Of a stretch of DNA of 34,078 nucleotides, positions 12,100 through 23,435 are shown one piece after another (within the stretch, counting starts at the first letter, position 1; the number at the start of each line of letters is the position of its first letter). Origin of the DNA: a virus; the IMG/VR virus record IMGVR_UViG_3300025674_000180, positions 1 through 34,078 of that record; one strand, written 5' to 3'. Position numbers and translations under genes: made by a program. The notes below the pieces were generated by a model that saw only the letters and a program-made list of their open reading frames with translations, was not told the origin of the DNA and searched no databases.

Positions 12100-12393
12100 A
12101 TGTCACGTTTAGCAAGAGACTCAGGTGCAGCACCTATTCAATGTTTACGACCCGGAGCGTCACAGACTGTTAACGTCTCTGGTTCAGCAAATGCAACAAC
12201 TTCCATCACTCAACGAGTAACACGGATTTGTGCCACTACAGACGTACACATTAGCGTCTCAGGCACTGCTACTATTAGCGACTATTACATCCCTGCGAAT
12301 ACTGTTGAGTTCATCCACACTTACACTGGAGACACCATTAGCTTTATCACCGACGGTACATCGGGCACAGCTTACGTATCGGAGATGATCTAA
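12100..12393 (+). CDS. hypothetical beta-rich protein, possible head decoration
   Basis: 97 aa, rich in Ser/Thr/Val strands (ASQTVNVSGSANATTSITQR, TTDVHISVSGTATISDYYIP), ending in TAYVSEMI. No membrane or catalytic motif. Small beta-sandwich proteins next to capsid genes often decorate the head or attach fibres. CAGGAG precedes the ATG, and the stop overlaps the next gene's start (TAATG), so it is coupled to the spike gene. The role is inferred. Confidence 0.65.
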   Translation: MSRLARDSGAAPIQCLRPGASQTVNVSGSANATTSITQRVTRICATTDVHISVSGTATISDYYIPANTVEFIHTYTGDTISFITDGTSGTAYVSEMI

Positions 12394-15389
12394 TGTACGG
12401 CTCTATCCCTAACAGGCTCTCAAAGAACCAGAGGGCCTTATCCAAATATTCTGTTGGGTCTGTTGAACCCGGCCTTGCCTTTGACTTTGTAGACAATGTT
12501 TACAGGAAGGGCGAAGGACAAACAGCTAATCTATCCAGCGCCATAACCCACGCCCGTGCTGGCAATGCCACTATGACGGACGGCTATGGGCCTGAGCTTG
12601 TTACCAATGGTGGATTCGACTCGGACTCTGACTGGACGTTAGGGACTGGCTGGAGTATTGCTGATGGTGTTGCCACTTCGGACGGCAGTCAAACGGCAAA
12701 CTCAACACTAGGACAGACAGTCACAACGCAAGCAAATAAAACCTATGTTCTTTCAGTAAGTGTAACAGTAGCCGCAGGAACATTTAGAGCTATTGCGTAT
12801 GATGGCGGGGATTTAGTTAATACGCCTATAAGTTCATCAGGCAACTACAGCATGATTTTTACCGCTGTAGATGACAGCACTCCACTTATTTTACGCGCTC
12901 AAGTTGGTTTTGCTGGCTCCATAGACAACGTAAGCGTCCGCGAGATGCCTGTCATCAAATGGGCACCGCATAATCTGCTGACGTACTCTGAAACTTTTGA
13001 TAGCTCAGATTGGGCTTATGCTAGATTAACCGACTCCGTAGGTGTTACGGCTCCTGATGGCTCTTCAAATTCTACGGCCTTAACATTAGACGCTACGACG
13101 AACACGCATTACGTACAGCAAAGTATTACTGCATCTGGCTCTTCTTATACAGGTGTTGTTTATCTAAAGACTAACGGTGTTCAATACGCAGGTATTACCC
13201 TTCAAGCAAGCACTACATACGGATGTGTCGCGGATTTAGTAAATGGGACAATAACTCAATCTGGTTCTAATACCGCCTCAACAAGCATCGAAGATGTGGG
13301 AGATGGTTGGTATAAAATCCAAGTAAAAATTGATGCGGCGGCTACAAAGCTATTGATTGGGCTGTCGAACTCGTCATCAAGTTTATTGCCATCTTTTACT
13401 GGCGATGGTTCATCAGGAATCTACGCATGGGGCGCACATCTCTACCGCTCAGACCTAGGCGGCATGGTAGACAACCCTGAGCGTGGAGACTCATACGTCC
13501 CTACAGCGTTGCGTCCTTTTGGTGCCAGCCTAGTTACAAACGGTACGTTCGACACTGACATAAGCGGTTGGAGTAATGTATCTGGAGGTGTTGCTTCGTA
13601 TCAGTCAGGTGTGATGCGTCTAACCCCCGCTGTAGGCGATACATTAGGCGGCGCAGAGCAAACCATTACGACGGTTAGCGGCAAGGCTTATGAGTTAAAA
13701 ATTACAGTTACAGCCGTTAGTTCAGCTACGCTTCGGTTTGGCGCAGGAACAGCAACAAACTTTTTAAATCTTGTGGACGTAGGATCGCTGGGAGTTGGCA
13801 CACATACCGTATCGTTTGTTGCAAGTAGCGCAACAAGTTACATTGTTGTTTACGCACAATCAGCAGGAGCTGGTACTGAGTATATTGAAGTAGATAACAT
13901 CAGCGTCCGCGAATCCTCAGTAAACCCCTCTGTCGCACGTTACCTCCCAAGAGTAGGCCATCACGTCTACAACGGCTCTGCATGGGTTAACGAGGGTGTG
14001 CTGGCTGAGTCTGAGGCTAGGACTAATCTAATTACTTACTCGAATGACTTTACGGATGCTAGTTGGACGGGAGGTGCGTCTGTTTCTTTAGGGTCAGTCG
14101 CGTCTCCTGATGGAAGTTATGCCTCTAAAATTACCTCAGTAGGTGGATTAAGCGATTACACAATACTTAGTGGCGCAGTTAATAATGGGCAGACTAAATC
14201 AGTATGGGCTAGGGCTGTTTCTGGAACCGGAACCGTAAATATACTAGCTCATAATTCAGTAGCTGAATCTCTTGTAACACTAACTGAGGAATGGCAGAGA
14301 TTTTATTTAACTTCTGATCTAACCGAAACCGGAGGCAATAATTTTTATTTAGTGGATTTTAGGGGTAGTGGAACGCTTAGCGAAATACTTGTTTATGGCG
14401 CACAGCTCGAGGCTGGCTCCACACCGTCAAGCTACATCCCAACGTCTGGCTCTAGCGTCACAAGAGCGGCAGAGACCTTCACGATACCATCAGCTAACCT
14501 ACCGTGGCCTACGCCGCAGTACATTGGCCCTGAGTTGGTGACTAATGGGACGTTTGATACGGACAGTGATTGGACGCTGGGAACTGGTTGGAGCATTGGA
14601 TCTGGCGTTGCCAGTAAAACAGCAGGAACTTCTTCGGTTCTTCAGCAGTTTGGAGTTGTGCCTTCTACGGGCTTAGTCAGGATAACATTCGATGCGACTA
14701 GATCGGCTGGATTTTTATACGCTAGGGCGGGAGGTAACACAAACCAACTAACGATCAATGCAAGCGGATCTTATGATGAAATCTTGGTAGTTCAGGGAGT
14801 AGATCAAACTCTTAGGTTTGTAGCTGACGGATTGTTTGCTGGCTCAATAGACAACGTCAGCGTCCGCGAGATCAACCCCCTGTCTGTCTCTATCGGCATG
14901 GAGGGGCGTGTTACGTATGCTGATGAGGGCACAACACAAACAAGTAAGTTTTACAGATGGATAAACGGCGGGGAATACATACAGCCTAGTATATTTACGG
15001 ATAGCACAAGAACGGGGCTAATGGCATTTGAGCAAGCTGTCGCAGGTGTTTACGACGCTGTTAGTTCATCGACTACACATTATTCTCCTGATGTTTTAGT
15101 GCCGTTTAATGTGGCTTCTCGTCACGGCTCCACCTTTATCAACGGCGCAGTTGAAGGCGTAGCATTAACAGAAAATACAACACCGACAGCTCTAGCTGAT
15201 CTTGAATCTGCTGACTTGAGCCTAGCTTATGACTACATGGGTACTTTATCGTCATTCCGTGTATGGGACAGAGACTTGGGTGACGCTGGTATTGTCGAAG
15301 CAACCAACCCATCGCTAGAGCCATCACTGAGTCTAACCTTTGAAGGCACTGGCACTAACTCATTCGTTGTTAATGATTGGGCAGAATGA
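12393..15389 (+). CDS. large spike/fibre protein with repeated carbohydrate-binding modules
   Basis: A 998-aa structural protein built from alternating modules. Galactose-binding-like units begin at about residues 68, 379 and 713, with the signature ELVTNGTFDTDSDWTLGTGW and the end SIDNVSVRE. Phage spike-fibre units begin at about 193 and 544 (NLLTYSETFDSSDW; ending AQLEAGSTPSSYIPTSGS). The C-terminal 200 residues look like a concanavalin/LamG-type jelly roll (FRVWDRDLGD). It is likely to bind host surface glycans. The following endonuclease start overlaps its stop. Module boundaries are by eye. Confidence 0.85.
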   Translation: MYGSIPNRLSKNQRALSKYSVGSVEPGLAFDFVDNVYRKGEGQTANLSSAITHARAGNATMTDGYGPELVTNGGFDSDSDWTLGTGWSIADGVATSDGSQTANSTLGQTVTTQANKTYVLSVSVTVAAGTFRAIAYDGGDLVNTPISSSGNYSMIFTAVDDSTPLILRAQVGFAGSIDNVSVREMPVIKWAPHNLLTYSETFDSSDWAYARLTDSVGVTAPDGSSNSTALTLDATTNTHYVQQSITASGSSYTGVVYLKTNGVQYAGITLQASTTYGCVADLVNGTITQSGSNTASTSIEDVGDGWYKIQVKIDAAATKLLIGLSNSSSSLLPSFTGDGSSGIYAWGAHLYRSDLGGMVDNPERGDSYVPTALRPFGASLVTNGTFDTDISGWSNVSGGVASYQSGVMRLTPAVGDTLGGAEQTITTVSGKAYELKITVTAVSSATLRFGAGTATNFLNLVDVGSLGVGTHTVSFVASSATSYIVVYAQSAGAGTEYIEVDNISVRESSVNPSVARYLPRVGHHVYNGSAWVNEGVLAESEARTNLITYSNDFTDASWTGGASVSLGSVASPDGSYASKITSVGGLSDYTILSGAVNNGQTKSVWARAVSGTGTVNILAHNSVAESLVTLTEEWQRFYLTSDLTETGGNNFYLVDFRGSGTLSEILVYGAQLEAGSTPSSYIPTSGSSVTRAAETFTIPSANLPWPTPQYIGPELVTNGTFDTDSDWTLGTGWSIGSGVASKTAGTSSVLQQFGVVPSTGLVRITFDATRSAGFLYARAGGNTNQLTINASGSYDEILVVQGVDQTLRFVADGLFAGSIDNVSVREINPLSVSIGMEGRVTYADEGTTQTSKFYRWINGGEYIQPSIFTDSTRTGLMAFEQAVAGVYDAVSSSTTHYSPDVLVPFNVASRHGSTFINGAVEGVALTENTTPTALADLESADLSLAYDYMGTLSSFRVWDRDLGDAGIVEATNPSLEPSLSLTFEGTGTNSFVVNDWAE

Positions 15390-16018
15390 TGCCAGCATAT
15401 AGGACTAAATGGACAAGAGACGCTGTGGAGCAGGTAGCTCAGAACTATCTGTATAAGTGGGAGTTTGTCCACGAAAATGGCGGAGCGGCTAAGGCGGCAA
15501 AAGAGGAGGGTTACTTCGACGATTTAACCGCTCATATGCTAGTAAAGCAGAATGCATGGACATACGAGTCCGTAAAGGCAGAGGCTTTAAAGTATACGAC
15601 TAGAGAAGACTTTCAACGAGGATCTTCAGGCGCAATAAAGTGGGCAAGAAGAAACGGAGTTATGGAGGACGTCTGCGCTCATATGAAGTACAACCGTAGA
15701 GGCGACTTTGATGCTGTGTACTTATGGAAAGTTAAAGACGAAAACGACGTATACAAGGTTGGCGTTACCTCTTACAGGCTAAAAGACAAAAGGATTAACT
15801 GGGTGTCTAATGCTTCTGGCTATGAAGTTGAGGGTTATATTTTGAAACAGTTTGATAATGCTTGCGAAATAGAAACGCAGTTGTTGTCTTTAGGTAACGC
15901 ATTGCATGATGCAGACTTTAATGGTGCCACTGAATTTAGACGGTTTACAGCAGATGATTTAGTTAAATGCTGTGAGCTTCTTAGTGTGGACAGCTTAGAA
16001 AGCGACTGGAGGCACTAA
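15386..16018 (+). CDS. GIY-YIG-like homing endonuclease with two DNA-binding repeats
   Basis: About 210 aa. Two copies of a DNA-binding repeat occupy roughly 14-51 and 61-100; the second reads ALKYTTREDFQRGSSGAIKW then ARRNG, with each copy ending AHM. This is typical of phage homing endonucleases. From about 111 a GIY-YIG-like core follows (AVYLWKVKDENDVYKVGVTS, Arg in KDKRINW, Glu in ACEIETQLL). It sits between two spike paralogues. ATG 15386 is preferred over an upstream TTG at 15377. No strong Shine-Dalgarno. The exact nuclease subfamily (GIY-YIG versus the related T5orf172 type) is uncertain. Confidence 0.75.
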   Translation: MMPAYRTKWTRDAVEQVAQNYLYKWEFVHENGGAAKAAKEEGYFDDLTAHMLVKQNAWTYESVKAEALKYTTREDFQRGSSGAIKWARRNGVMEDVCAHMKYNRRGDFDAVYLWKVKDENDVYKVGVTSYRLKDKRINWVSNASGYEVEGYILKQFDNACEIETQLLSLGNALHDADFNGATEFRRFTADDLVKCCELLSVDSLESDWRH

Positions 16019-17658
16019 TGGGAACGAAGACGTATAACAACTACGAAGACTTACTAACGTATACCCGAGCCTCTAAGGGCCATGCCCTGCGCCCTGTTAG
16101 CTATGGGGATGAGCTTGTAACTAATGGTACGTTTGATAGTGACATTAGCGGGTGGACGGACTCCCTATCAACTAGCACATGGGACCCTGCTGGTTATATT
16201 TCAGTTAGTTATTTTACTTCGGCGTCTGGCCCCTATCAGTCATTTAGCACTGAGGTAGGTAAGATTTACACCGTAAGTGGCACACTAATTTCAACTACAG
16301 GAACAGGTGCGTCGGGGCCGCTAATTAGAGCGGGAAGCGGCTCTTCACCAGACGCGGGAATCATTGACAGCAACACTCTGTCAGCAGGGGAAACTGCAAC
16401 GATTTCTTTTGTAGCAACAAGCACTACTTCTTATGTTTATTTGCGAAATGCCAGCGCATACACATCAAAATGGGACAACATCAGCGTCAAAGAGGTAACC
16501 TTCGACCAACCAGACGGCACCCTAACGCTCTTCGAGCATCCCAATAACATCCCTCGTGTAGAGTGGGACGCAGACGGTAACAGGCTGGGTTTGCTGGTGG
16601 AGGAAGCTAGGACTAATCTGTTTCCTTACAGCGAAGACTTTAGTAATGCGGCTTGGATTAAACAAAATCTTACTGTAAGCCCAAACACTGTAACAGCTCC
16701 CGACGGAACAAACACGGCAGACGTATGTACGCCCAGCTCTGGGACAAGCGACGCAGGAATAAGAGCTATTGCGTCAAGCACGGCATCACCCCATGTTTTT
16801 TCTGTTTGGTTAAAAAGTTCGACCGACTCGTCTTTTGACGTCAATTTAACTGTAACTAGAAACGTTCCTTACGCATCCGTAGCTTCTAAGTCAGTTACGG
16901 TTACTACTAGCTGGCAATTATTTTCTGTTTCAGCAACATTGCTTGATACATCTTCTCATGCTTTTAGAATAGGACATGGAAGCTCGTGGGTTGATGGCGA
17001 AGTTTTAAGCATCTGGGGCGCTCAACTAGAAGCTGGCTCATTCCCCACAAGCTACATCAAGACTACAGGGGCAACAGCAACACGCTCTGCCGACGTAGCG
17101 TCTATCCCCGTGGCTGACTTTGGGTATAACAACAAAGAAGGCACAATCTTAGTTGAAGGCGACTATAAGTTTAATACCTCTGGTTCAGGCTTTCCTAGAA
17201 TCCTAGAGCTAGGAAACACCACTACATCTGAAAACAGAATTGTTATTTACATAAGTGAATCGGGAAACGATGCTGTATTCGGCCCTCTCGCCGCCAATGT
17301 GCAACAAGCCTCAATTAATTTATTTGCTGATCAAACAGATGGAGTCTTTGAGGCTTCAAAAATGGCGATTGTATTTGCAGAAAATAATTTCATTGGTGTT
17401 AGGGACGGCGTAACAAAAGCAACTGATACATCAGGAACAATAGTGCCCAGTGAGCCGAGAGATATCCTAGCGATTGGAAGACAAGCCGCAGGTTCTTCGT
17501 CGGTTGGGACAGGCCACTTCAAAACCATTAAGTATTATCCGAGAGCGCTAACTAGCGCACAACTACAAGCACTGACAGAGCCACGCAGCGACGCAACCCT
17601 ATCTCTAACCTTTGACGGCCTAGAGTCTAGCTTTACGGAGAACTATATACATGGCTAA
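16018..17658 (+). CDS. spike/fibre protein, second paralogue
   Basis: 546 aa. A short conserved start (YTRASKGHALRPVSYG) is followed by a galactose-binding-like unit at about 32 (ELVTNGTFDSDISGWTD), a spike-fibre unit at about 200 (NLFPYSEDFSNAAWIKQN, ending AQLEAGSFPTSYIKTTGA) and a C-terminal LamG-like lectin domain. It aligns throughout with the 17651 protein and in modules with the 12393 protein. GGAGG lies just before the ATG, inside the endonuclease's last codons. Probably a receptor-binding subunit. Confidence 0.85.
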   Translation: MGTKTYNNYEDLLTYTRASKGHALRPVSYGDELVTNGTFDSDISGWTDSLSTSTWDPAGYISVSYFTSASGPYQSFSTEVGKIYTVSGTLISTTGTGASGPLIRAGSGSSPDAGIIDSNTLSAGETATISFVATSTTSYVYLRNASAYTSKWDNISVKEVTFDQPDGTLTLFEHPNNIPRVEWDADGNRLGLLVEEARTNLFPYSEDFSNAAWIKQNLTVSPNTVTAPDGTNTADVCTPSSGTSDAGIRAIASSTASPHVFSVWLKSSTDSSFDVNLTVTRNVPYASVASKSVTVTTSWQLFSVSATLLDTSSHAFRIGHGSSWVDGEVLSIWGAQLEAGSFPTSYIKTTGATATRSADVASIPVADFGYNNKEGTILVEGDYKFNTSGSGFPRILELGNTTTSENRIVIYISESGNDAVFGPLAANVQQASINLFADQTDGVFEASKMAIVFAENNFIGVRDGVTKATDTSGTIVPSEPRDILAIGRQAAGSSSVGTGHFKTIKYYPRALTSAQLQALTEPRSDATLSLTFDGLESSFTENYIHG

Positions 17659-19198: not shown

Positions 19199-19584
19199 CC
19201 GAAGAAATCATTGAAGCACCAAAGGTAGACTTCCACCTACGTCTAGCCGCTGAGTCAGAGATGCCTACTGTGCTGGCTGACTTCTACACTCAGGACTACG
19301 TTACAGTCGTAGACGAGGAAGGCGTAGAGACGCAGACACCAGACGGTGATCCCTACCTAGTAGCTCACAGCCATGACTACGCTATCGACGTTGTAGGGAC
19401 AATTCACGAGCCTACAGGGACTATGCTGACCGACGACGAGGGCAACGAGTACCCTGAGATGGCACCGATTGACGGCTGGCACATCAACATCAGACTCGTG
19501 GGCGATGCCAAGCGTGAAACTGTAGAGGCTTTGGACGCAACTCACGGGGTAACACCTGAGCAACCTAAGAGAGTTTGGTTATGA
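19195..19584 (+). CDS. hypothetical tail-region protein, 129 aa
   Basis: Acidic protein with beta-rich stretches (FYTQDYVTVVDEEGVETQTP, HSHDYAIDVVGTIHEPTG) and a conserved-looking end (DGWHINIRLVG, then HGVTPEQPKRVWL). Similar small proteins lie between spike and fibre genes in marine phages, possibly as fibre chaperones or adaptors; I cannot assign one. AGGAA precedes an ATG that overlaps the upstream stop as ATGA. Confidence 0.65.
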   Translation: MTEEIIEAPKVDFHLRLAAESEMPTVLADFYTQDYVTVVDEEGVETQTPDGDPYLVAHSHDYAIDVVGTIHEPTGTMLTDDEGNEYPEMAPIDGWHINIRLVGDAKRETVEALDATHGVTPEQPKRVWL

Positions 19585-20618
19585 GTAACTATACTAAAGC
19601 TACGGACTTTGCTGCTAAGGACGCATTGCCTTCTGGTGACGCTGCTAAGGTCATCAAAGGTGCTGAGTTTGAGGACGAGTTTGATGCTATTGCAACAGCA
19701 GTAAACTCTAAGGCAGACACTGCTAGTCCGACGTTTACAGGAACAGTAACAATACCTACCGCTGCTGTTACAACATTTAGTCTTGGTGGAACAACTGTTA
19801 CTTCTACTGCTGCTGAGCTTAACTTGTTAGACGGAGTAACTGCTACTACGGCAGAGATTAATTATGTGGATGGTGTAACCTCTAACATACAAACACAGCT
19901 AGACGCTAAAGCTCCTACAGCATCTCCTACCTTTATTGGCACTGCAACAATACCTACTGCTTCTGTGACTACATTAAACCTTGGAGGTATTGCTCTTACC
20001 TCTACTGCCGTTGAGCTTAACTATGTTAATGGTGTAACCTCTAACATTCAAACCCAGCTTAACTCTAAAGGTACTGTGGACAACTTGGGAGACCTCGGTT
20101 TAACCGCTACTGCCGTTGAGATTAACAAGCTAGATGGCGTTACAGCCTCTACAACAGAGCTGAACTATGTCACAGGAGTCACCTCTAGTATCCAAACACA
20201 GTTAGACGCTAAAGGAACTGTTAGCTCCCTGTCTGACCTGAGTGTTACTGCTACTGCGGCTGAGCTTAATTATGTAGACGGCGTTACTTCTAATGTTCAA
20301 ACACAACTAAACGCTAAGGTTAACGACAGCGACTTTACTCAAAGCCTTGCTAGTAACGGATGGACTGAGCTTCCTAATGGTTTAATTATACAATGGGGTA
20401 GGCAATATCTTGCCGCAAACTCCAGTAATGCGACAGTGAGCTTTCCAAAAACGTTTACGACCGCGTGTTTTCAGGTTGTTATTACGGGTGAGGATAATGA
20501 AACATCAAGAGGTGATAACTTTTCACTAGGACAAACTGCGCCTACAACTTCAAATTTTAGAATTACCAATGGTGTAAACACAGGACTTTATTTTAGATTT
20601 ATAGCTATAGGTCACTAG
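19581..20618 (+). CDS. tail fibre built from tandem repeats
   Basis: About 345 aa from ATG 19581, which overlaps the preceding stop (ATGA); a TTG two codons earlier is less likely. The shaft is made of repeats with the core ELNYVDGVTSNIQTQLDAK, present about four times with variants such as ELNLLDGV and EINKLDGV between them, typical of trimeric fibre shafts. The C-terminal tip (SNGWTELPNGLIIQWGRQYL, ending YFRFIAIGH) matches the fibre-tip domain of many tail fibres. It would bind a host receptor. Confidence 0.9.
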   Translation: MSNYTKATDFAAKDALPSGDAAKVIKGAEFEDEFDAIATAVNSKADTASPTFTGTVTIPTAAVTTFSLGGTTVTSTAAELNLLDGVTATTAEINYVDGVTSNIQTQLDAKAPTASPTFIGTATIPTASVTTLNLGGIALTSTAVELNYVNGVTSNIQTQLNSKGTVDNLGDLGLTATAVEINKLDGVTASTTELNYVTGVTSSIQTQLDAKGTVSSLSDLSVTATAAELNYVDGVTSNVQTQLNAKVNDSDFTQSLASNGWTELPNGLIIQWGRQYLAANSSNATVSFPKTFTTACFQVVITGEDNETSRGDNFSLGQTAPTTSNFRITNGVNTGLYFRFIAIGH

Positions 20619-20629
20619 GAGTACTAATA

Positions 20630-20914
20630 ATGTCCGACCAAACTGATTACTCAGTACGTTTAAATCGTATTGAAACCAAGCTAGACAAGTTAACTGAGGC
20701 GTTGACAATGATTGCTCGTGTTGACGAAAAACTAACAGCGGGGTCACTACGTATTGATCGTCTTGAATTTCGTTTAGACGAACAAGAAACTGACCTTGAC
20801 AAAGTAAAAGAAATAGTAGGTTACAACTCACAAACAGCTAGAACAGCAGAACGATTTGTGTGGTTATTAGTTAGTGCGCTTGTTGGCATTGTGGCTTATG
20901 GGTTTAAAGTATGA
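20630..20914 (+). CDS. coiled-coil membrane protein, holin-associated (XhlA-like)
   Basis: 94 aa: a long coiled coil (SVRLNRIETKLDKLTEALTM, then RIDRLEFRLDEQETDLDKVK) and a single C-terminal membrane segment (FVWLLVSALVGIVAYGF). This layout matches XhlA-type proteins and other lysis accessory proteins anchored by the C-terminus. It overlaps the holin gene by four bases. A role in lysis timing or membrane disruption is inferred. AGGAG precedes the ATG. Confidence 0.75.
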   Translation: MSDQTDYSVRLNRIETKLDKLTEALTMIARVDEKLTAGSLRIDRLEFRLDEQETDLDKVKEIVGYNSQTARTAERFVWLLVSALVGIVAYGFKV

Positions 20915-21255
20915 TCCAACAACTGCTTGGTCCTATTGTTTCTCTTGCTACAGGATTCCTTGAGCGTAAGGCTGAAGAGAAACGTGCAGTGCATGAGCGT
21001 AAGCTAGAGATTATCAAACAGGACAGTAACTGGGAAAACATACAAGCTGGCAACTCAGGTTCATCATGGAAAGACGAATGGCTAACTCTTTTGTTTTCTG
21101 TCCCCCTTGTTATGGCGTTTTTTCCTTCTGCGGTTCCTTATGTAATTGATGGCTTTAAAGCTTTAGAAGAAATGCCAGAGTGGTATCGCGTATACTTAGG
21201 TGTAATTATGGCTGCTTCTTTTGGTGTAAGACAATTAGTAAACTTTAAAAAATGA
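20911..21255 (+). CDS. holin of the 3TM gene-transfer-release type
   Basis: 114 aa. The N-terminal helix (LLGPIVSLATGFLERKAEEK) leads to NSGSSWKDEWLTLLFSVPLV, then the AFFPSAVPYVI region and WYRVYLGVIMAASFGVRQLV, matching the 3TM holin family. It would let the M15 endolysin reach the wall. The last 14 residues (AASFGVRQLVNFKK) recur at the end of the next gene (AASFGLRGLANWRK). The 3' end therefore appears to have been supplied by the inserted HNH element. Confidence 0.85.
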   Translation: MIQQLLGPIVSLATGFLERKAEEKRAVHERKLEIIKQDSNWENIQAGNSGSSWKDEWLTLLFSVPLVMAFFPSAVPYVIDGFKALEEMPEWYRVYLGVIMAASFGVRQLVNFKK

Positions 21256-21719
21256 AAACGTGTCGTATTTGTAAAGAAACAAAACCTTTTACTGATTATT
21301 ATCCAAGAGGCGCTAGATGTAAAAGCTGTTGTATAGTCGCTGTTAAAAAATGGAAAGTTGATAACAGAGAAAAAGCTTTAGAGCACCAAAGAATTTCAAA
21401 TAAAAACAGACGTTCTAAAAGACTAATAGAATGTAACATTAGACGAAAAAGAGTTAAACAGGCTACTCCAAAATGGGTAGATAAAAACGAATTAAAGTAT
21501 ATTTATACATTAGCAAACGAAAAAAATTTAGTTGTGGATCACATAGTTCCTTTAAAGCATGAGTTAGTTTGTGGATTAAATGTTCCAGATAACTTAAGGT
21601 GTATACCAATGCAAATGAACGCAACTAAAAGTAACAAGTTTAACCAAGAAACTGCTAGTTCTCATGCGGCAGTAGCGGCATCATTTGGTCTACGCGGCCT
21701 AGCTAACTGGAGAAAATAA
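21252..21719 (+). CDS. HNH homing endonuclease fused to the old holin 3' end
   Basis: 155 aa. Zinc ribbon at the N-terminus (Cys4, Cys7, Cys23, Cys26), a basic Lys/Arg-rich middle, then an HNH core (VVDHIVPLKHELVCGLNVPD, Asp96/His97, His103, with NLRCIPMQMNATKSNKF). The last 14 residues match the end of the holin. The gene is AT-rich compared with its neighbours, starts ATGA on the holin stop and lacks a Shine-Dalgarno. It is probably a free-standing mobile endonuclease that nicks or cuts holin alleles lacking it. Confidence 0.88.
   Translation: MKTCRICKETKPFTDYYPRGARCKSCCIVAVKKWKVDNREKALEHQRISNKNRRSKRLIECNIRRKRVKQATPKWVDKNELKYIYTLANEKNLVVDHIVPLKHELVCGLNVPDNLRCIPMQMNATKSNKFNQETASSHAAVAASFGLRGLANWRK
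21675..21719 (+). repeat. relic of the holin 3' end (second copy)
   Basis: Codons here give AASFGLRGLANWRK plus stop. The holin's own end at 21211-21255 gives AASFGVRQLVNFKK plus stop. Nine of 14 residues are identical, yet most codons differ (for example GCG GCA TCA against GCT GCT TCT). The downstream gene's Shine-Dalgarno (GGAG) lies in this copy, so this is probably the original end. Confidence 0.7.
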
Positions 21720-21720
21720 T

Positions 21721-22791
21721 ATGCCTCGTAACGTTGAAGGAGGAAGAAACGAGCTTGATATGTTTGGCGGCGGTAGCGGTGGTCTTTTTACGTTTTACAA
21801 CTACGGGCCTGATGGTGCTCCTAGTAACGCGCCTCCGACTGCTTTTGAGCGTGGAATTACCCGAGCCCCTTCACCCGGTTTTTTTACGAGTCCGGGCGGC
21901 GTTGTTATTACTGATACTGAGCAGATTGAAGATATTTTTAATCCCCCGCAGTTTGCTATTGGGCCGGGGTATACCGATCAAAATGTTTCTAAAGAACCTG
22001 CTGAGTTAGACCCTACTCTTACAACAGAAGAAGAAACAGAACAAGAAACACCTATAGCTGACGCTGTAGAACAAGCAACAGAAGCAGTAACAGAAGGCGT
22101 GTCCAGTGTGGTACAGGACGCTATTGACGCTGCAAAAGATGCTTTACCTGATGACGCTTCGGTAGAATCCATATTAGACTGGATAGCAGAAAACGTACCA
22201 GAGATTACACCTCAGTCCATCTTTGATGAGTACATTGGTGCTGGTGTAGGCGTTAACTTACCTACAGGAGCGCCTATAGGCTCTGGCACAGTGTTTATTC
22301 CGGGTATACCGGGTTTACCTTCCTCTTCTCCTAACATGGTTATAGGGACTGTAGACGAGGTTATGCAGGACATCCTAGAAGGTAATCTTCCGGGTGTCAT
22401 TGGTGACATTGCTGAAGACCCTGTAGGAGGTATTGAAGCAGTAGTAGAAGGAGTAACAGACGATGCAGAAGAAGTTACACTAGGCGACCTGTTAGGTTCC
22501 GGTGTTGACTTAGGTATCGGTGATGACGACGAAGTTTCTGACATCTTTACAGAAGAAGGGCAGACAACAGACTACGGTGCTGGTCTTAATGACGGAGAAA
22601 CTGAGGACATACTAGCTGCTGTTGGAGGCGCTGGAGCTACTGCTGCCGCTACTGGGACAGGGGTACAAAGACCTTCAGGTGACTTTACTCCTTTCATGAG
22701 AAGGCTTCAGTACACTCCAGTGGCTATCCCTAAGCCTATTGTACCTAATGCTCCTGTTGTAAGTAGTTTATTTAGTGAGTACTTAAAATGA
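21721..22791 (+). CDS. acidic virion protein of unknown role, 356 aa
   Basis: Very acidic and poor in cysteine. It has a Gly-rich start (LDMFGGGSGGLFTFYNYGPD), a long acidic helix (ADAVEQATEAVTEGVSSVVQ, then DAIDAAKDALPDDAS), a Pro/Gly segment (GTVFIPGIPGLPSSSP) and a short basic end. No enzyme motif. Its place between lysis and tail-adaptor genes suggests a virion or DNA-ejection component. The end FMRRLQYTPVAIPKPIVP looks like a conserved docking tail. Name withheld. Confidence 0.65.
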   Translation: MPRNVEGGRNELDMFGGGSGGLFTFYNYGPDGAPSNAPPTAFERGITRAPSPGFFTSPGGVVITDTEQIEDIFNPPQFAIGPGYTDQNVSKEPAELDPTLTTEEETEQETPIADAVEQATEAVTEGVSSVVQDAIDAAKDALPDDASVESILDWIAENVPEITPQSIFDEYIGAGVGVNLPTGAPIGSGTVFIPGIPGLPSSSPNMVIGTVDEVMQDILEGNLPGVIGDIAEDPVGGIEAVVEGVTDDAEEVTLGDLLGSGVDLGIGDDDEVSDIFTEEGQTTDYGAGLNDGETEDILAAVGGAGATAAATGTGVQRPSGDFTPFMRRLQYTPVAIPKPIVPNAPVVSSLFSEYLK

Positions 22792-23435
22792 CATACCTAA
22801 ACATAATGAACAATGTACTACGTCGTTTGCGTGAGGAAGAAGTAAGTGCTGTTACTGAAACTACATACGCAAAGATGGTTGGTGACTTTATTAACGACGC
22901 TAAAGTAATGGTAGAGGAGTCAACTGACTGGTCTGCTCTGCGTACTACTATTAGTATTACTACTGTTAACAACGACAATCAGTACTCACTAACTGACTGT
23001 GGTGACAACGTTAAAGTTATGTCGGCTATGAACGACAGTGAGAACTGCTTCTTGTCCTACCAAACAAAGGACTGGTTTAACGAACAACTTTACCTCAACA
23101 CTGTTGTTGACGGTGCGCCTAGGTACTACACCTTTGACGGCCTTGACAGCAACGGTGACACTCAGATCCTTGTTAGCCCTAGACCAGAAGGTGCACAGAC
23201 ACTTAGGTTTGACGTTATCAAGCGACAGGCAGAATTAGTAAATAACAATGACAACCTGCTTGTACCTGAGAAACCTGTAATCCACATGGCAGTAGCACTA
23301 CTTGCTCGTGAACGTGGTGAAACAGGCGGTACTTCTACTGCTGAGTACTTTGCTATTGCTGATAAGTACTTGTCCGACGCTATTGCTATTGATGCAGCAA
23401 AGCACCCAGAAGAGATGATCTTTAGGACTATCTAA
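22788..23435 (+). CDS. tail adaptor (T7 gp11-like tail tubular protein A)
   Basis: 215 aa. The helical start (YLNIMNNVLRRLREEEVSAV) and VGDFINDAKVMVEESTDWSA, a beta-rich middle (YYTFDGL, ILVSPRPEG) and a helical end (VIHMAVALLARERGETGGTS, YFAIADKYLSDAIAIDAA) form the adaptor fold that sits on the portal and starts the tail. It directly precedes the nozzle gene, as in T7. Overlaps the upstream gene by four bases; Shine-Dalgarno weak. Confidence 0.87.
   Translation: MTYLNIMNNVLRRLREEEVSAVTETTYAKMVGDFINDAKVMVEESTDWSALRTTISITTVNNDNQYSLTDCGDNVKVMSAMNDSENCFLSYQTKDWFNEQLYLNTVVDGAPRYYTFDGLDSNGDTQILVSPRPEGAQTLRFDVIKRQAELVNNNDNLLVPEKPVIHMAVALLARERGETGGTSTAEYFAIADKYLSDAIAIDAAKHPEEMIFRTI

Follow-up and report, generated by a model that had tools for sequence, protein, structure and literature searches.

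An HNH endonuclease gene between a chimeric holin-like gene and its displaced native end in a phage contig

Direct comparison of the window analysed here, a 34,078-nucleotide stretch of DNA from a marine virus (positions 1 to 34,078 of IMG/VR record IMGVR_UViG_3300025674_000180), with related loci revealed a chimeric holin-like gene, an HNH endonuclease gene at the joint, and the native end of the holin gene displaced beyond the nuclease and in frame with it, while the other loci of the holin lineage carry empty alleles. We estimate a probability of about 0.75 that recombination with a donor that was divergent and rich in A+T brought a free-standing HNH gene of the homing type into the 3' half of the holin gene.

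All of the features lie on the plus strand. The holin-like gene (20911–21255, 114 codons) is preceded by its native left neighbour, an XhlA-like gene (20630–20914) with upstream homologues that are 71–75% identical in L001, L002, L006, L048, and L050. It is followed by the HNH open reading frame (21252–21719) and then by the gene at 21721–22791, which begins with an ATG at 21721 and has matches in lineage loci as the native right neighbour of the holin gene. Residues 25–49 of this downstream product showed 88% identity to the product of the gene directly 3' of an uninterrupted holin gene in L065/L067, and residues 144–356 showed 76% identity in L043. The 5' end of the first gene 3' of the holin varies in almost every relative (L001–L016 and L041–L073), making 21721–22791 a hypervariable slot; around it, the holin end and the gene at 22788–23435 (80–89% identical) are conserved. 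The holin-like protein belongs to phrog_2524 (E = 9.3e-36), and one relative is annotated as DUF3154; no Pfam model matched the protein above the cut-off. The function of phrog_2524 is listed as unknown; we infer the holin identity from the family together with the relatives' neighbours, which are often lysis-type genes.

Two similar 3' ends flank the nuclease where the preliminary description had placed them: the holin-like gene ends in ...AASFGVRQLVNFKK-TGA (21211–21255) and the HNH open reading frame in ...AASFGLRGLANWRK-TAA (21675–21719). That description had also reported nine identical residues out of 14 between AASFGVRQLVNFKK and AASFGLRGLANWRK and mostly different codons, and we obtained the same residue count, with just 4/14 codons identical. 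Over 57 nt, the two copies agree at 32 positions, and their longest exact common run is 6 nt. Within the window alone, the similarity between the holin and HNH sequences is modest, with a local score of 47 that was reached by 9 of 5000 shuffles. Comparison with 46 distinct lineage holins makes the homology of the two ends certain: of their final 17 positions, 13 are invariant, and the HNH tail matches all 13, whereas the end of the window holin itself keeps nine of these residues and misses four. All 17 residues of the tail (21666–21719, including the stop) are identical to the holin ends of L045, L046, L051, and L065.

The second copy had been proposed to be the original holin end, and the comparison bore this out: nuclease-free relatives have this ending and continue directly with the gene that follows. 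The Shine-Dalgarno sequence of the downstream gene, which had been assigned to this copy, can be read directly inside the displaced end as GGAG at 21709–21712, before the ATG at 21721. The original end is also read as the tail of the nuclease, as had been suggested, its 17 codons and stop being open and in frame with the HNH gene. The displacement of the original end is nevertheless partial; the last 17 resident codons remain, but codons 58–97 (about 120 bp) are lost.

The lineage set comprised 71 distinct loci, drawn from a holin search (16 IMG/VR loci) and from searches with the C-terminal half and the N-terminal half of the holin, and 70 of them had at least 300 nt of downstream flank. An uninterrupted, nuclease-free holin gene, as predicted for relatives, was found in all 70 of these judgeable loci, the following gene starting no more than a few bases away. 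At all 70, the holin ends in AAVAASFG(L/I)RGLANW(K/R)K or near it, with NW(K/R)K as the final residues. Nuclease-free relatives ending like 21211–21255, named beforehand as the case that would speak against a duplicated end, were absent; the lineage ends match the HNH tail instead. No nuclease was present in the 71 lineage loci, no HNH or GIY-YIG motif occurred within 1.5 kb 3' of the lineage holins, and a profile of 34 aligned HNH proteins matched the HNH proteins of the window and of phage Greip and nothing in the lineage loci. The 71 nuclease-free loci, together with the Greip/HTVC204P pair described below, represent the empty sites expected of a free-standing homing endonuclease.

The altered holin end had been described as a recoded patch of 15 codons; we found instead that the whole C-terminal half, approximately 57 codons (58–114) starting at about 21,080, is a divergent allele. 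When compared to L001, the resident N-terminal half (codons 1–57, 20911–21081) was identical at 55 of 57 residues and about 91% of nucleotides, whereas the C-terminal half (codons 58–114 plus stop, 21082–21255) matched the lineage, L001 included, at 33 of 57 residues. Lineage pairs that share at least 50 of 57 residues in the N-terminal half share at least 45 of 57 in the C-terminal half. MaxChi analysis placed the best split after window position 21077 (against L001) or 21081 (against L002 and L006), a value reached by none of 2000 permutations, and located the left breakpoint (21078–21082) within the conserved SSWKDEW codons; control comparisons between lineage members showed no comparable break. 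Sites invariant in the lineage were changed in the window holin at 0/23 positions of the N-terminal half and 10/38 of the C-terminal half. Where the amino acid was the same, the codon was identical at 42 of 55 sites in the N-terminal half versus 15 of 33 in the C-terminal half; synonymous divergence therefore also jumps in the C-terminal half, which indicates more than fast protein evolution.

The G+C content was 36.3% in the C-terminal half of the holin gene and 30.9% in the HNH body, compared with 44.4% and 53.7% in the flanks and 45.7% in the window, in agreement with the earlier description of the HNH gene as AT-rich. The simplest account of these sequences is one foreign tract, at approximately 21080–21665, in place of resident codons 58–97. 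The incoming C-terminal part is in frame with the resident core and divergent from the native part, and the native C-terminal part is found on the far side of the nuclease gene and agrees with close relatives; both are properties of mobile open reading frames that restore the gene they enter. In a tree of the C-terminal half, the window fell outside the lineage, and in an AU test over 59 columns, placement inside the lineage was not rejected (p = 0.115). The closest match to the C-terminal half, at 38/57 residues (67%), lies within the lineage, with L060 also at 67%, and this, like the AU result, counts against the insertion account. The tree suggests an origin beyond the lineage and leaves the choice of donor clade wide. 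Searches with the single HNH protein, the HNH alignment, an alignment of the holin C-terminal half, and the exact junction DNA revealed no donor or second carrier of a holin C-terminal half and HNH gene like those of the window among viral contigs, genome contigs, and phage records, and this too counts against the insertion account.

A natural occupied/empty pair was found in two other phages. In Pelagibacter phage Greip (MT375525; L034:1995–3060), the HNH endonuclease-like gene gp52 starts on the stop codon of the holin-like gene gp53, whose product belongs to the family of the window holin (profile E = 4e-14). Pelagibacter phage HTVC204P (L201:2501–3133), a near relative, encodes a holin protein identical to that of Greip, and over the 1.6 kb that end at the holin stop its DNA is approximately 96% identical to that of Greip, but it has no HNH gene there. 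On the 3' side of the Greip HNH gene, sequence matching the last 13–18 nt of the holin gene reappears, joined to the beginning of the gene that follows, whose start is thereby restored. The two genomes indicate that a related nuclease was gained or lost exactly at the holin 3' boundary, with the start region left for the next gene, and the presence of the HNH gene at the holin stop in one and its absence in the other support homing to the holin 3' end. Two further results count against the insertion account: the Greip and window HNH proteins are only 38% identical over 127 residues, and an HNH gene was absent from all 80 Greip-type holin loci sampled in IMG/VR, which implies that occupancy is rare. 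Among 80 HNH loci, no holin–HNH pair other than that of Greip was found, viral contigs yielded no relatives of the Greip HNH protein, and the other HNH loci contained no copied neighbour end comparable to that of the window.

The most serious alternative, which we nevertheless consider unlikely, is ordinary mosaic recombination in the holin gene with an illegitimate right junction, the HNH gene being a passive passenger with no restoring or protecting role. Three near-lineage holins without a nuclease (L069, L084, and L115) have differing middles (PLVMAFVPEAV and similar), from which the C-terminal half of the holin seems to have been exchanged repeatedly; the gene thus recombines in any case, and the gene 3' of it differs in almost every relative. 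Against this reading, the nuclease sits precisely where the incoming end meets the displaced one, and a related nuclease occupies the holin stop in Greip but is absent from HTVC204P. Tandem duplication of the holin 3' half, followed by entry of the nuclease between the two copies and by rapid divergence of the upstream one under selection to escape cutting, would account for two homologous ends flanking the nuclease, but is improbable given that synonymous sites have diverged too, that the change at codon 58 is sharp, and that a low G+C content is common to the divergent half and the nuclease gene. An assembly artefact joining two phages from one metagenome is less probable still: although the arrangement was seen in one contig only, a single IMG/VR record, the ends have no more than 6 nt in common, which is too little to have produced a spurious join at the right-hand junction, the frames are open across both joints, and the native genes on either side agree with those of the lineage.

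The HNH gene body (21252–21665) encodes a protein matched by HNH phrogs (phrog_1035, E = 7e-16, and others) and endonuclease VII phrogs, and thus has a nuclease domain of a homing family. In an alignment of 34 HNH sequences, the motif VDHIVPL...VCGL...DNL...N..K.N was conserved, with D96, N114, N123, and K126 invariant and H97 and N128 nearly invariant. A search of the PDB by sequence gave no match to the HNH protein; a fold search gave weak matches that included HNH proteins (best E = 0.094). As previously noted, the gene starts on the holin stop, its ATG at 21252 overlapping the TGA (ATGA), and has no upstream Shine-Dalgarno sequence of its own, so that its translation is probably coupled to that of the holin. 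The absence of an intron or intein was likewise upheld; no Rfam family, group I introns included, matched in the window, and the flanking frames read through unspliced. The tail had been expected to be missing from HNH proteins elsewhere, and all 35 HNH relatives end shortly past N..K.N and lack it. The idea that the tail, open and in frame as it is, forms a functional part of the HNH family and resembles the holin end incidentally is largely refuted and can be given almost no weight, since these relatives have no tail and the tail DNA and the gene following it match lineage holin loci. The AlphaFold model of the HNH protein (mean pLDDT 86.7 in its confident core, falling to 42–66 in the tail) suggests that the holin-derived tail is tolerated, not used, by the protein.

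For the preferred reading, insertion of the HNH gene by recombination, we propose the following course. In the donor, the nuclease gene would already have stood directly behind the donor's own holin gene. The HNH nuclease would cut the resident holin gene, with the break in codons 58–97, and strand invasion of the donor holin gene at SSWKDEW would provide the left exchange. The 3' half of the donor holin gene would then be copied together with the nuclease gene, giving a chimeric, full-length holin, and rejoining at resident codon 98 would form the right exchange, with resident codons 58–97 lost. The last 17 resident codons and their stop would stay fused to the nuclease gene and still provide the downstream gene with its ribosome-binding site. 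Such a tail fusion has a one-in-three chance of being in frame and may be kept because ribosomes are brought to the start of the next gene.

The chimeric holin is presumably functional, and the incoming half presumably resists cutting by the HNH nuclease; a cut site in codons 58–97, or at a position altered in the incoming half, would imply self-protection. The preliminary description had proposed a self-protecting, gene-restoring insertion, of which the displaced native end holds good, but the short recoded patch gives way to a foreign half that completes the holin. A possible but tentative extension is that the element is a phage homing cassette carrying a cleavage-resistant 3' half of the gene that it cuts, each invasion repairing the essential gene that it destroys and the old end being recycled as nuclease tail and translation start of the next gene.

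Comparable arrangements are known from fungal mitochondria, where a foreign C-terminal part, an endonuclease open reading frame, and the displaced native C-terminal part follow one another in Allomyces macrogynus atp6 and in Glomus sp. atp6, atp9, cox2, and nad3, with hybrid transcripts detected in Glomus; further C-terminal replacements occur in Rhizopus oryzae atp9 and Mortierella verticillata cox2 (PMC3630166). As in those genes, the foreign part in the window completes a hybrid gene, and the native part after the nuclease matches relatives. The mitochondrial open reading frames encode LAGLIDADG or GIY-YIG nucleases, whereas the window has an HNH nuclease in a phage, which places it outside the mitochondrial type, and only here does the displaced end serve as nuclease tail and supply the next gene's ribosome-binding site.

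Among phages, the free-standing T4 endonucleases SegF, SegG, and Mob perform intronless homing with conversion of flanking sequence (PMC2988022, PMC13096335). Like these systems, the window has a nuclease gene with host genes on both sides, lacks an intron or intein, and shows flanking conversion and empty alleles in relatives; the described nucleases lie between intact genes, however, whereas here half a gene has been swapped and the old end left behind. Homing endonuclease genes also enter functional coding regions in phages, as here, namely mobE in Aeh1 nrdA and mobA at T4 gene 60 (PMC2988022), but these split the host gene, whereas in the window the replacement 3' half keeps the holin whole. 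Greip gp52/gp53 is similar in that a related HNH gene overlaps the holin stop with its start and the holin 3' end recurs afterwards; unlike the window, it is a clean insertion without a swapped holin half, and the recurrence is just 13–18 nt. We found no report in the open-access literature of a phage case with a replaced 3' half and a displaced native end. The kind of invasion is already known from fungal mitochondria, and its occurrence in a phage is new as far as that literature shows.

The arrangement resembles engineered home-and-rescue gene drives, of which it would be a natural counterpart if the proposed mechanism is correct. Should the nuclease prove to cut the resident holin gene but not the chimera, phages and fungal mitochondria would share a form of intron- and intein-free invasion of coding sequence. 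A replacement end brought along by the nuclease gene would then explain how such genes target conserved genes in compact genomes, and it would offer a direct mechanism for chimeric genes at phage recombination boundaries.

Nuclease genes were also observed at other sites. In Pelagibacter phage HTVC202P (L039:2222–2779), a related HNH gene lies directly 5' of a peptidase M15 gene, away from the holin-like gene, another lysis-region location for the family of the window HNH protein. At L138:643–1847, the tail of the HNH protein encoded there resembles part of an upstream open reading frame (local score 35), perhaps the remnant of a second HNH gene. The window itself contains a second nuclease-like open reading frame at 15377–16018 on the plus strand (phrog_681 endonuclease, E = 2e-8; phrog_20046, E = 4e-18), which lies between the large tail-type genes 12393–15389 and 16018–17658 with short overlaps; no duplicated gene end was found around it. 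A further tail-type gene, at 19575–20618 on the plus strand, contains internal repeats of the form LGG..LTSTA.ELNYVDGVTSNIQTQLDAK.
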